From positions 1-12,310 of the forward strand of contig CAKQCV010000068.1 in the NCBI GenBank assembly GCA_934217675.1: a stretch of 12,310 nt of DNA, given 5' to 3'. Position numbers and translations under genes: made by a program. Source of the DNA: an uncultured Prevotella sp. (GTDB lineage: Bacteria; Bacteroidota; Bacteroidia; Bacteroidales; Bacteroidaceae). Position 1 is the first letter of the stretch. Every line of letters starts with the position of its first letter. The notes below the pieces were generated by a model. The model saw nothing but the letters and a program-made list of their open reading frames with translations, was not told where the DNA came from and made no database searches. This document shows, in pieces, positions 1,631 through 9,841 of this stretch.

Positions 1631-2059
1631 ATGAGATTAAAAAGAACACTGAAAGCACTTGCTCTAAGAGCATCAATGTCAAATTACTTGCCAAACTCGC
1701 TTCGTCTTTCCCTTGTCAAAATGGGGGGGGTAAAGTGCGGACGGTCGTTTGTCGGTCAGCAAGTTATCTTTGATAGCGAACACCCTGAAAATATAGAAAT
1801 AGGTGACTATAGCGCCATCACGATGCGCTGTGTTTTACTGACGCACTATGTAAAGCCACATGGTAACAGCCATGTTTATGAAACAGGAAAAATCAAAATA
1901 GGAAATAATGTGTTTCTTGGTGCAAACACGGTGATAACAAAAGCTGTGACCATTGGTGACAATGTGATTGTCGGTGCAGGAAGCATTGTAACCAAAGATA
2001 TACCATCGAATGAAATTTGGGCAGGAGTTCCTGCCCGTTTTATCAAAAAATATGAGTGA
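1631..2059 (+). CDS. Hexapeptide-repeat acyltransferase, phase-variable (ON, G8)
   Basis: This 142-residue left-handed beta-helix acyltransferase resembles the maltose/galactoside O-acetyltransferase group, so it probably acetylates a sugar of the locus polysaccharide. Hexapeptide repeats occupy roughly residues 45-135: IGDYSAITMRCVLLTH, IKIGNNVFLGANTVI, VTIGDNVIVGAGSIV, then the family-typical tail AGVPARFIKKYE. The His in LLTH is the likely catalytic base. ATG 1631 is preferred to the TTG at 1622, which overlaps the upstream stop. A run of eight G at 1723-1730, followed by TAAA, encodes M31-G-G-V-K and keeps the frame. A ninth G would end translation within 20 codons. Neighbouring genes carry the same tract at G9, so this copy is read as the ON state of a phase-variable gene. 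Confidence 0.88.
   Translation: MRLKRTLKALALRASMSNYLPNSLRLSLVKMGGVKCGRSFVGQQVIFDSEHPENIEIGDYSAITMRCVLLTHYVKPHGNSHVYETGKIKIGNNVFLGANTVITKAVTIGDNVIVGAGSIVTKDIPSNEIWAGVPARFIKKYE
1723..1730 (+). repeat. G8 homopolymer tract, in-frame switch
   Basis: Eight G follow AT and precede TAAA. The first G is the third base of ATG (Met31), so the codons read ATG GGG GGG GTA AAG. One extra G gives GGT AAA and a stop about 17 codons downstream. Two extra, or one fewer, give GGG TAA, an immediate stop. Confidence 0.8.
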
Positions 2060-2078
2060 ACAACATATATAAACAATC

Positions 2079-3369
2079 ATGATAAAGAAATATTTGAAAG
2101 AAACAGCCAAGTATCTTTTACGCTCTCAAATCTTTACCAGAAAGTATGTGAAAGAGATTGAGGAAATGTACAGAATGTCTCCTTCAGAACTGAGATTGAG
2201 AAATGAAAAGCGATTCTTGGAAATCTTCAGAAAAGCATGGACAAACTCTGCTTATTACAGAGGTCTTTGTATTTCGGGGGGGGGTAAATACAATTGACGA
2301 AATCCAGCATTTAAAAGATATAGTAAAACTCCCTGTCCTTACCAAGGATATGCTCAAAAAACATGGCAAGGAGCTATTGACCCGAAAGGAGAAAGGACTT
2401 ATCAAAAACCACACAAGCGGTACAACAGGCACCCCTCTGACCGTATGGCAAGATTGGGCTTCGGTATGGCGTGAGCAAGCTTATTTTGTTTGCTATCGCA
2501 AGCGGTGTGGGTATCAGTATGGTGAGCCGATGGTATCGCTTCGTGGCAACTTGGGAAGAAACGACATTTCGCTGAAAGTGCATGTGAGCAATACCTTGTT
2601 CCTATCAAGTTACAACATCAATGCCCAAACGGCAGAGACTTATCATCGCTTGATTGTAAAACATCATCCCAAGGCGATAGAGGGCTATCCAAGCTCACTG
2701 TACAGTTTGGCACTCATGTTGAGAGACAAAGGCTTGGAATGTCATATACCTGTGGCATTTACCTCTTCAGAAACGCTTCATGATTACCAACGTAATCTGA
2801 TAGAAAAGATATTTCATACCCAAGTATATGACCATTATGGCACCACAGAGCGCACCATCCGTTTGGAAGAATCGCTTGACCACAAAGGCTACTATGAAGA
2901 CCCAGGTTATGGTATTGAGGAATATCATGATGATTATGTGTTAACCACATCCCTCATCAATGACGCTTTTCCGCTGATAAGATACAAAACTAATGACCGA
3001 GTGGTATTGAAAAATAACACGATTTTAGCGCATGCAAGTGACCCTATGGTGGAACGAGTTGAAGGACGTTCGGCTTCTTTTATCATAGGAAAGGATGGAA
3101 CAAAATACAACGATGCCGCCTTGACCTTTATCTTCAAGGATGCGCATGGCGTGAGACTGGCCCAGTTTGTTCAAAACGAAGTAGGAAAAATCATTTTGAA
3201 TATTGTTCCTGAAAACGATTTCTCAGAAAATGATAAGGAGGAGGTGTTGAAAAACATAGACCAGAAAATCGGAAAGAAAAATATGGATGTGGATTTCCGC
3301 TTGATTGACGAGTCGGAAATGCAGTATACCAAGAGAAACAAACTCGCTTTAGTAATTAGCAATTTATAA
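2079..3369 (+). CDS. CapK/PaaK-like adenylate-forming ligase, phase-variable (OFF, G9)
   Basis: This belongs to the phenylacetate-CoA ligase/CapK family, adenylate-forming proteins common in capsule loci and thought to activate an acyl or amino-acid substituent. As written the gene is broken. From ATG 2079 the frame runs only to TGA 2295-2297 (72 residues, ending ISGGGKYN), while the rest continues in another frame to 3369. The break is a G9 run at 2276-2284. With eight G the two parts join as CISGGVNTIDEIQHL, giving 429 residues, normal for the family. The ATP-binding motif TSGTTGTPLTV lies downstream of the tract, followed by YPSSLYSLALML, FTSSETL, YDHYGTTERT and LIRYKTNDRVVL. An apparent start at 2203 reads the wrong frame through the N-terminal region and is not the true start. 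A sequencing error in the homopolymer is the main alternative. Confidence 0.85.
2276..2284 (+). repeat. G9 homopolymer tract causing frameshift
   Basis: The sequence TTTCGGGGGGGGGTAAA surrounds the tract. The first G is the third base of the TCG codon (Ser66). G9 gives GGT AAA TAC AAT TGA and truncation. G8 gives GTA AAT ACA and restores the ligase. The same 17-base string occurs at 9341-9357. Confidence 0.85.
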
Positions 3370-3400
3370 ACAAATTTCATAAAATCATTAAAACAGAATT

Positions 3401-8073: not shown

Positions 8074-9251
8074 TTATCGTGGAAAATCTGCCTGTGCCTT
8101 TCGACACTCGCGTATGGCAGGAGGCTACTACGTTGGCTGCCAACGGCTACACGGTTTCGGTGATTAGTCCTACGGGCAAGGGCTATGACAAGGAATATGA
8201 GTTCTTGCAGGGCGTGCATGTGTATCGCCACAAACTGCCTAAGGACGGTAATGGTGCGTTGGGCTATGCCCGTGAGTATGGTGCGGCACTTTGGCATGAG
8301 TATCGTTTGGCAAAGAAATGTTATAAAGAGGTGGGCTTCGACTGCATCCACGGTTGCAATCCGCCCGATGACATCTGGATGGTTGCTAAGATGTTCAAGG
8401 ACAAGGGCGTGGACTATATCTTTGACCACCATGACATCTGCCCAGAACTGTATGAGGCTAAGTTTGGCAAGACGTCGGGTTTGTTCTACAAGAGCCAGTT
8501 GTGGCTGGAGCGTCAGACCTACAAGCACTGTAAGTTTGCCTTTGTAACCAATGAGAGCTACAAGAAGATAGCCATCGAGCGTGGAGGCATGAAGCCAGAG
8601 GATGTGTTTGTGTTGAGAAGCGGTCCGAAGTTGGAGCGATTGAAGATACAAGAGCCTAAGCCGGAGATCAAGCGTGGCAAGAAATTCATGGTGGGCTATC
8701 TTGGTGTGATAGGTCAGCAGGAAGGCATAGAGTATTTACTGAAGGCAGCCAAGTATATTAAGGAGTTGCCGGGACGGAATGATGTATTCTGGGGTATCGT
8801 GGGCGGCGGTCCCGACGTGGAACACATGAAGAAGTTGAGCCATGAGATGGAGTTGGACGACATTGTGGAGTTTACAGGGCGTGTGCCAGACCAGACCTTG
8901 CTTGACTATCTGAATACGGCGGATGTGTGTGTCAACTCGGACGAATATAACGCCATGAACGACAAGAGTACGATGAACAAGGTGTTGGAGTACATGGCTT
9001 TGGGTAAACCTCTGGTTCAGTTTGACTTGACCGAGGGCAGATATTCGGCACAGGAGGCTTCACTCTATGCCAAGCGCAACGATGCCGAGGATATGGCGAA
9101 GAAGATTCTTGAGCTGCTCGACAATCCAGAGAAGCGCAAGCAAATGGGCGAGTATGGCAGAAAACGAGTCATCAACGAGTTGAGCTGGGAACATACCAGC
9201 AAGGCTTTGTTGGCAGGGTATGACAGATACTTTAAGAGGAGGGGGAAGTAA
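8055..9251 (+). CDS. Glycosyltransferase family 4 protein (DTRVWQEA type)
   Basis: This 398-residue GT4-type glycosyltransferase is predicted to be cytoplasmic and to build the locus polysaccharide. The N-terminus has the family signature PFDTRVWQEA (residues 15-24), then FDHHDICPELYEAKFG. The C-terminal donor domain contains YLGVIGQQEGIEYLL, IVGGGPDVEHMKKL, FTGRVPDQTLLDYL and TMNKVLEYMALGKPLVQFD. At the usual EX7E site only the second Glu is present (E312); the residue eight positions earlier is Lys304. The replacement may be normal for this subgroup. ATG 8055 lies inside the 3' end of the lyase gene, implying translational coupling. Codon use is more GC-rich than in the acyltransferase genes. 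Substrate unknown. Confidence 0.9.
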   Translation: MDRKVLIIVENLPVPFDTRVWQEATTLAANGYTVSVISPTGKGYDKEYEFLQGVHVYRHKLPKDGNGALGYAREYGAALWHEYRLAKKCYKEVGFDCIHGCNPPDDIWMVAKMFKDKGVDYIFDHHDICPELYEAKFGKTSGLFYKSQLWLERQTYKHCKFAFVTNESYKKIAIERGGMKPEDVFVLRSGPKLERLKIQEPKPEIKRGKKFMVGYLGVIGQQEGIEYLLKAAKYIKELPGRNDVFWGIVGGGPDVEHMKKLSHEMELDDIVEFTGRVPDQTLLDYLNTADVCVNSDEYNAMNDKSTMNKVLEYMALGKPLVQFDLTEGRYSAQEASLYAKRNDAEDMAKKILELLDNPEKRKQMGEYGRKRVINELSWEHTSKALLAGYDRYFKRRGK

Positions 9252-9279
9252 TTCCTTCTCTTCTTTCAAACTTGTAGAT

Positions 9280-9841
9280 ATGATAAAGACACGTAAAGAC
9301 ATGTATGCTTATATCCATGAGGATATGAAGCGCAATCTTATTTCGGGGGGGGGTAAAGTCGTGGATAAAGATACTGTTGAATCCACGGCTTTGCTTCACC
9401 GTGAATCTGAGACATTATGAGTATTGGGCTAATCGAAAGTTTCGAGACCCGATAACTGTATTGATGACTGTATGGCATTATTTCATTCATAAGCACTTGT
9501 CGTATAAACTTGGTTTCACGCTATATAAAAATCAGTTTGGACCGGGATTATATATCATGCATTATGGCACAATAGTGGTCAATCCTAAATGTCGGATTGG
9601 TGCAAACTGTAATATTAATGCTGGTGTAAACATAGGAATGGGTGGCAGTATCATAGGTGACAACTGTTATTTGGCTCCAGGGGCAAAAATCATCAAGCCT
9701 GTACACATTGGCAACAATGTGATGATTGGAGCCAATGCTGTTGTGACGAAAGATATACCTGATGATTGTGTGGTGGCAGGTATTCCTGCAAGGATTATCA
9801 AGAGGTATAACCATGATACTCATCGGTGGGATAAGGTATAG
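9280..9841 (+). CDS. CysE-like O-acetyltransferase, phase-variable (OFF, G9)
   Basis: This is a left-handed beta-helix acetyltransferase resembling serine/colanic-acid acetyltransferases, likely to acetylate the locus polysaccharide. It is out of frame as written. From ATG 9280 the frame stops at TGA 9418-9420 after 46 residues, while the catalytic part lies in another frame ending at 9841. Reducing the G9 run at 9345-9353 to G8 joins them as RNLISGGVKSWIKILLNPRL and yields 186 residues, the usual size. The downstream part has YIMHYGTIVVN, with a likely catalytic His94 in restored numbering, then IGANCNINAGVNIG, IGDNCYLAPGAKI, IGNNVMIGANAVVTKDI and AGIPARIIKRY. An in-frame ATG at 9377 opens only a truncated version lacking the N-terminal helices. 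Sequencing error is the alternative. Confidence 0.85.
9345..9353 (+). repeat. G9 homopolymer tract causing frameshift
   Basis: The tract lies in TTTCGGGGGGGGGTAAA, identical over 17 bases to the ligase tract at 2272-2288 and in the same codon phase (first G completes TCG). G9 gives GGT AAA GTC and a stop at 9418. G8 gives GTA AAG TCG and restores the acetyltransferase. Confidence 0.85.

Follow-up and report, generated by a model that had tools for sequence, protein, structure and literature searches.

Three poly-G runs in an exopolysaccharide gene cluster of an uncultured Prevotella species very probably serve as simple-sequence contingency switches, bringing putative decoration genes in and out of frame through slipped-strand phase variation, a reading to which we assign a probability of about 0.85. 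The cluster is found in a stretch of 12,310 nucleotides, contig CAKQCV010000068.1 of GenBank assembly GCA_934217675.1, and the window hereafter means the whole of this stretch; open reading frame (ORF) calls and Pfam and NCBIfam profiles place the genes of the cluster all on the forward strand. The runs lie in an O-acetyltransferase-like gene (g1), a PaaK/CapK-like adenylate-forming ligase gene (g2) and a serine-acetyltransferase-like gene (g3). Replication slippage within a coding run would gain or lose one G, and the enzyme part downstream, be it the O-acetyltransferase of g1, the PaaK-like ligase of g2 or the acetyltransferase of g3, would then be read in or out of frame. A single exopolysaccharide backbone would be made with or without each decoration, allowing up to eight surface states if the three switches are independent. 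The preliminary description of the window had proposed both this switching and its standing as a layer apart from invertible promoters, and both proposals are supported by the occurrence of either frame state at the site homologous to the g1 run, by a one-G difference between two relatives, and by sets of runs in the surface-glycan genes of related genomes.

Three runs, three genes and one codon phase

The only G or C runs of at least seven bases in the window are a G8 followed by TAAAGT in g1 (1723-1730), a G9 followed by TAAATA in g2 (2276-2284) and a G9 followed by TAAAGT in g3 (9345-9353), all on the forward strand. Given the lengths of the genes, the probability of one run falling in each of the three is about 0.001. 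The shared motif, GGGGGGGTAAA, occurs three times against an expectation of 0.01, and none of 200 dinucleotide shuffles reached three occurrences. Each of these genes therefore contains, above chance, a homopolymer of hypermutable length within its reading frame, and a change of a single base in that length shifts the gene in or out of frame.

Each run begins at the third position of a codon in the upstream frame, and the in-phase reading across it is Gly-Gly-Val-Lys in g1 and g3 and Gly-Gly-Val-Asn in g2. In the one snapshot that the window provides, g1 stays open across its run and is in frame, and the frames of g2 and g3 break at theirs, leaving both genes out of frame. One shifted frame meets TAA immediately in each gene; the other reaches a stop 13, 3 and 21 codons past the Gly codons in g1, g2 and g3, respectively. 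Hence the motif, the codon phase, the encoded residues and the geometry of the OFF frames (TAA at once in one, a stop 3-21 codons on in the other) were all confirmed as first described for the window. Two features of the window are not general: several relatives of g1 begin their run at codon position 2, and the restriction of runs to decoration genes holds in the window for runs of at least seven bases, the heparinase-like gene having a G6 at 6420-6425, but fails elsewhere, where glycosyltransferase genes also carry runs.

The three genes differ in how firmly their products can be named. Intact in the window, g1 (1631..2059) encodes a hexapeptide (left-handed beta-helix) O-acetyltransferase-like protein, with a Pfam Hexapep match at 1.1e-11 and homologues of up to 94% identity; its ORF starts at the TTG at 1622, and homologues suggest the ATG at 1631. 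The ligase-like g2 (2079..3369) is broken at its G9 run into an upstream ORF at 2079-2297 and a downstream frame ending at 3369. Neither piece matched a Pfam family, and the assignment follows from NCBIfam matches below their curated cut-offs (DVU1553_fam_AMP at 8.9e-18 and PaaK at 1.3e-9) together with two phenylacetate-CoA ligases in the PDB, at 2e-9 and 1.8e-8; a homologue of g2, P0123, has a LuxE match, likewise below cut-off. Also broken at a G9 run, g3 (9280..9841) is a serine-acetyltransferase-like hexapeptide gene (Pfam Hexapep at 7.4e-14; NCBIfam EpsC-like at 1.5e-21, below cut-off), with an upstream ORF at 9220-9420 and a downstream frame extending to 9841. Homologues point to the ATG at 9280 as its start, the ten best, shorter ones excepted, having 82-88% identity. 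All three enzymes probably decorate the polysaccharide.

Run length and frame vary among relatives

A protein search with g1 covered a sample of 399 genomes of one family, many of the genomes compared in this work being draft metagenome assemblies, and found matches at E of 1e-12 or better in 212. At the ten best loci (L217-L226, with 45-67% identity, a second copy in genome G790 lying outside this set), a run of G8-9 was present at the homologous site in six, in frame in L220 and L223, and out of frame in L217, L221, L224 and L225. As L224 and L225 are near-identical, these amount to five independent cases, two in frame and three out. Moreover, L224 and L225, which come from two genomes, G766 and G790, differ by one internal base in 3,357, and this difference is a G7 versus a G8 inside another hexapeptide gene. 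Such a one-G change fits the trace that slippage would be expected to leave, although one assembly with a homopolymer error would give the same picture. Hence differences in run length between close relatives are seen in this hexapeptide gene and, across homologues, at the g1 site. Separately, G790 has a second g1-type match at C1:2032926, and the 3.36-kb acetyltransferase region common to G766 and G790 may reflect recent transfer between species or duplication.

Truncated proteins are consistent with the same pattern. Eight of the 40 best g1 protein matches start within or just after the run, as would fit out-of-frame alleles. Truncated relatives of g1, g2 and g3 (P0014, P0165 and P0245) come from the same source and have the same longest contig, of 20,988 bases, which suggests that they are encoded on one contig bearing all three runs.

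The variability at these sites also bears on the idea that each run is a programmed site of transcriptional or ribosomal slippage, yielding both products from one allele. Long homopolymers are capable of this, as is generally known and as part of PMC3711429 describes. However, a programmed site should keep its geometry, and here run length, frame and codon position all vary in homologues, making such programming highly improbable.

Several observations weigh against phase variation. At four of the ten g1 loci, the homologous site lacks a run of at least seven bases. The g2 run is missing in all seven of the distant g2 homologues compared (L347-L350, L011, L014 and L015), and among five g3 homologues with 45-55% identity, four have no run and one, L354, has a G9 at another site; the g2 and g3 runs are therefore young or lineage-specific. 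The length differences come from relatives, the window's own runs being known from one assembly, and L224 and L225 sit on large contigs that are perhaps long-read assemblies; homopolymer indels are the commonest long-read error. Contig ends or the choice of start codon can shorten proteins just as an out-of-frame run would, and having two of three genes out of frame is what fixed decay or assembly error would also yield. Finally, runs of G8-9 are at the short end for instability: part of PMC4965091 reports that slippage products of the polymerase chain reaction (PCR) in Campylobacter jejuni rise 2.5-fold from G8 to G11.

Taken to their conclusion, these points would mean that g2 and g3 are merely decayed, or that their frameshifts are assembly errors, and that nothing switches. 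Two of the three genes are indeed out of frame in the window, and the absence of the run from distant g2 homologues and most g3 homologues accords with this account. Three findings nevertheless make it distinctly unlikely. Firstly, relatives of 45-67% protein identity retain G8-9 at the g1 site, in both frame states. Secondly, g2 and g3 are open on either side of their runs. Thirdly, many runs of a single genome fall in one functional class. Slippage switching, probably reversible and frequent in the window organism, is thus the better account of the same observations.

L354 has a further run besides its G9. On the minus strand at 1895, TATTTC-G8-TAAAA lies where the next gene, acetyltransferase-like by eye, begins.

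Sets of runs in the surface-glycan genes of related genomes

The concentration of runs in one functional class is most apparent in two genomes. Runs were scored as coding where the frame was open for at least 80 amino acids (aa) downstream and at least 12 upstream, or for 120 upstream and 15 downstream. By this rule, 22 of the 37 runs of G8 or longer in Prevotella sp. AH.B5_7 (G018) are coding, 16 in frame and six out. Pfam, applied to 20 of the 22, identified eight Acyl_transf_3 genes (one below cut-off), three Hexapep and two PGA_cap, with one each of TupA, FrhB, nitroreductase, GT2, HsdS (a type I specificity subunit) and DUF1573, and one of no family; the run of the DUF1573 locus, L212, is probably upstream of the gene. 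By family name, 16 of the 20 are glycan-linked, a proportion that has no genome-wide baseline for these families.

In the second genome, G033, on a contig picked for its many runs, eight coding runs lie in a single 30-kb polysaccharide locus, two in frame and six out. They fall in three Hexapep genes, one each of Acyl_transf_3, MBOAT and GNAT (the last just below cut-off), and two ATP-grasp genes (one TupA, one ATPgrasp_ST). Their run-less neighbours include an initiating sugar transferase, four GT4 genes, a Wzy-like gene (below cut-off), five ATP-grasps and a 507-aa protein without a family, presumed to be the flippase. With classes that we assigned ourselves, and leaving out seven other neighbours in the locus, runs occur in eight of 13 decoration genes versus none of seven backbone genes (Fisher test, 0.015). 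Hence runs are enriched in surface or host-interaction genes in both G018 and G033, again with no genome-wide baseline.

Backbone genes are not exempt in every genome, as runs are also found in the GT2 glycosyltransferase of G018 and in three group-1 glycosyltransferases of the clostridial genome G025, at or near their 3' ends. Across G024-G026, Pfam was applied to ten of 16 coding runs, which fell in three group-1 glycosyltransferase, two Hexapep, one AMP-binding (below cut-off) and one FrhB gene, and in three genes of no family.

Three further sites were observed in these surveys. Early in a serine-acetyltransferase-like gene, three clostridial genomes (L022:11048, L023:11321 and L024:10474) have a G7-9TAATAC run in common, at the same site by eye. 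In G018, a G8TAAGAA run at L172:2376 is in frame by rule in the type I restriction specificity gene, making this subunit possibly phase-variable. In G063, a G9TAATTT run on the minus strand of L339, at 2837, is out of frame by rule in a DNA N4/N6-methyltransferase gene, a possible phasevarion.

A TA context after long coding runs

The preliminary description had suggested a genome-wide search for G runs followed by TAAA, and had read the shared suffix as a hint of spreading, gene conversion or selection on the motif itself. In 393 genomes of the order, we counted 285 copies of GGGGGGGGTAAA, spread over 134 genomes, against 94 of the mirror word AAATGGGGGGGG, spread over 62, these totals being sums over per-genome rows. 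An order-wide excess was thus found, but in the high-count genomes it is mostly intergenic: in G477, G492, G428, G257, G194 and G156, nearly all of the G8TAAA sites examined lie between genes by eye, and partly in dispersed repeats. The order-wide count therefore shows no phasome, and was rejected as proof of one. In G477, which has 22 G8TAAA in 2.3 Mb, loci L185-L200 are mostly intergenic runs of G9-20 followed by TAAATG with similar flanks, and look like a repeat family.

A spread of the motif between genes, by gene conversion or on a small cassette, could draw on such dispersed intergenic repeats and on the flanks of the runs. Beyond TAAA these match pairwise only, g2 and g3 having TATTTC-G9-TAAA in common, and g1 and g3 the TAAAGT 3' of the run. 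TATTTC-G8-9-TAAA recurs in a third, unrelated gene of L354, such that only three of 283 non-redundant runs of G8 or longer have this prefix; the ten-base match among unrelated genes could be coincidental or could have been left behind by copying. However, no match extends beyond those ten bases, and other coding runs have other flanks. With the shared sequence so short, the TAAA partly explained by the codons of the gene families, and the order-wide excess mostly intergenic, spreading has little in its favour and is most improbable.

A broader bias emerges from a suffix-blind collection, in which TA follows 30 of 55 coding runs of G8 or longer, as opposed to 7.1% of G3-6 runs (1,302 of 18,418) in the same loci. 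In the TA tallies, the coding ORF also had to exceed every opposite-strand ORF in length; the rule is mechanical, and some assignments are wrong. The 55-run tally covers L001-L043, L067, L161-L172, L201-L258 and L267-L326, dropping runs with an N at most 60 bases away, those at most 40 bases from an end, and duplicates as judged by 25-base flanks. It leaves out the window, L044-L066, L068-L160, L173-L200, L259-L266 and L327-L346; L111-L160, L173-L200 and L329-L346 were mostly picked for a TAAA or TA suffix, and the omission of L071-L110 has no such ground. L161-L172 were picked for TAA, and together with L201-L216 make up all 37 runs of G018. Paralogous and homologous runs in the tallies are not fully independent.

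The same preference is weaker after non-coding runs of this length (17 of 72; coding versus non-coding, p = 4e-4), and is spread over the frames f0, f1 and f2 of coding runs as 3, 17 and 10. It occurs in both Bacteroidales and Clostridia, as TAA, TAC or TAT, with TAG following no run and TGA two. Set by set, the coding counts are 3/3, 7/7, 12/22, 2/5, 7/12, 5/8 and 2/6, the g1 set and the clostridial one-per-genome set not being significant alone (p = 0.06 and 0.10). With the window, L259-L266 and L327-L346 added, TA follows 44 of 72 coding runs, and among the matches listed it accounts for 49 of the 150 from the genus of G018 and for 51 of the 150 from the clostridial order of G025.

Three explanations for this context have to be weighed. 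The first is protein constraint only, with the runs having grown in Gly-Val-(Lys/Asn) stretches and acquired GTA-AA by codon choice and convergence. By eye, G-V or G-I occupies the site in most g2 homologues (GGV in 11 of 119), g1 homologues read GGVK, GVK, GMK or GIK, and GTG replaces GTA in L223 at the same site and in L243 at another. Yet the 30 of 55 coding runs that TA follows span many families and every frame, so that TA is not tied to a Val codon; in close relatives of g3 the site reads GAR, GAS or GAK instead of GVK; and the TA excess is partly present after non-coding runs too (17 of 72 against 7.1%). Protein constraint as the sole reason is therefore possible, but we lean against it.

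The second is that TAA was selected for a clean OFF state, as one shifted frame stops at once, in keeping with the TAA after 22 of the 55 coding runs. However, the near absence of TAG and TGA counts against selection for stops: of the 24 stop codons, 22 are TAA (p = 4e-10). After G3 runs, by comparison, TAA is less common than TAG and TGA combined in four of the five locus sets, and many clostridial suffixes are TAC or TAT, which are not stops. Selection for stop codons was rejected on the scarcity of TAG and TGA as the whole reason for the TAA, and is unlikely as an explanation of the suffix.

The third is that TA directly after a long G run marks out phase-variable runs in Bacteroidales and Clostridia at the level of the DNA, below the reading frame. 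The independence of the bias from frame means that it is no codon effect. In C. jejuni, according to part of PMC4965091, PCR slippage is set by the length of the run and not by its flank, which argues against a simple effect of TA on the slippage rate. Such a DNA-level signature is unlikely. If true, the TA context would favour the origin, persistence or slippage of runs, or be recognised by a host factor, and dispersed surface genes would become switchable as they converged on G(8-9)TA. The TAAA common to the three genes is best regarded as having two components, the G-V-(K/N) codons natural to the gene families and a more general tendency of TA to stand directly after long coding runs of G.

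The surrounding gene cluster

The run-bearing genes are embedded among genes identified from Pfam. A glycosyltransferase family 4 (GT4) gene at 585-1625 precedes g1, and a second at 8055..9251 precedes g3; neither contains a run, nor does the UDP-glucose/GDP-mannose dehydrogenase gene at 3401..4798, which was used as the query for related loci and retrieved 70, with a top identity of 85%. The titles of related loci indicate that the source habitat is probably the gut. A heparinase II/III-like polysaccharide lyase gene, the one with only a G6, spans 6181..8073. Downstream of g3, Pfam and NCBIfam identify an NTP_transf_5 gene at 9858-11024, and a helicase gene running from 11170 to the end of the window. 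A helicase search in 149 relatives of G018 yielded at best 61% identity over 268 residues, any higher identity being confined to short stretches, and a first genome scan with g2 retrieved no relative.

Between the dehydrogenase and lyase genes, at 4930-6100, a gene with a SocA/Panacea antitoxin domain (Pfam, 5.7e-23) overlaps a 237-aa gene without a Pfam family. The two genes, which lie within the polysaccharide cluster, have the appearance of an inserted pair of toxin-antitoxin type.

No recombinase was detected among the 12 ORFs submitted to Pfam. A scan for inverted repeats (1-700, 4780-4960 and 6080-6200) identified a 10-nt hairpin at 654-680. An inverted repeat at 4824-4905, between the dehydrogenase and Panacea genes, consists of two 23-nt arms, 87% complementary, separated by 36 nt; it may represent a terminator, a small mobile element or an invertible stretch.

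Discussion

The proposed switching is similar to that of the poly-G and poly-C contingency genes of Campylobacter jejuni and Neisseria, which also have coding runs of G8-12, slippage that switches frame, surface-structure genes as targets, and several loci per genome; part of PMC4965091 counts 29 tracts in C. jejuni, of which 28 were assayed. The hosts here are instead Bacteroidales and Clostridia, and the targets are mostly O-acetyl- or acyltransferases in exopolysaccharide loci. A strong TA context follows the runs described here; the main texts searched on Campylobacter gave no run sequences with which to compare it. The invertible capsule promoters of Bacteroides fragilis likewise vary surface polysaccharides between ON and OFF, and in the same phylum. 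However, in B. fragilis whole loci are switched by an invertase acting on promoters between inverted repeats, whereas here run length would switch single decoration genes. Phase-variable O-acetylation genes of the O-antigen or lipopolysaccharide also act on decoration rather than backbone, by other mechanisms or in other lineages.

The proposed mechanism is one already known from Campylobacter and Neisseria. The host group and target set were not found in the literature search: the titles and abstract openings listed from the open-licence literature, with preprints outside the scope, contained no poly-G switching in capsule or exopolysaccharide genes of Bacteroidales. What may go beyond an instance of a known mechanism is the G(8-9)TA context. 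In the parts available, a 2025 review (PMC11868660) regards the seeming confinement to pathogens of genomes rich in phase-variable loci as an open question, and presents phase variation in Bacteroides mainly as DNA inversion. It also contains a table, from an earlier survey, of long simple repeats in 153 genera, which it does not name in those parts, and Bacteroidales may already be on such a list.

The surface states predicted here would plausibly matter in encounters with phage, the immune system or the community. Bacteroidales with eight poly-G runs in one locus, as in G033, or with around 20 coding runs, as in G018, would counter the apparent restriction of such genomes to pathogens. Such runs would also provide commensal bacteria with a testable source of within-strain surface diversity.

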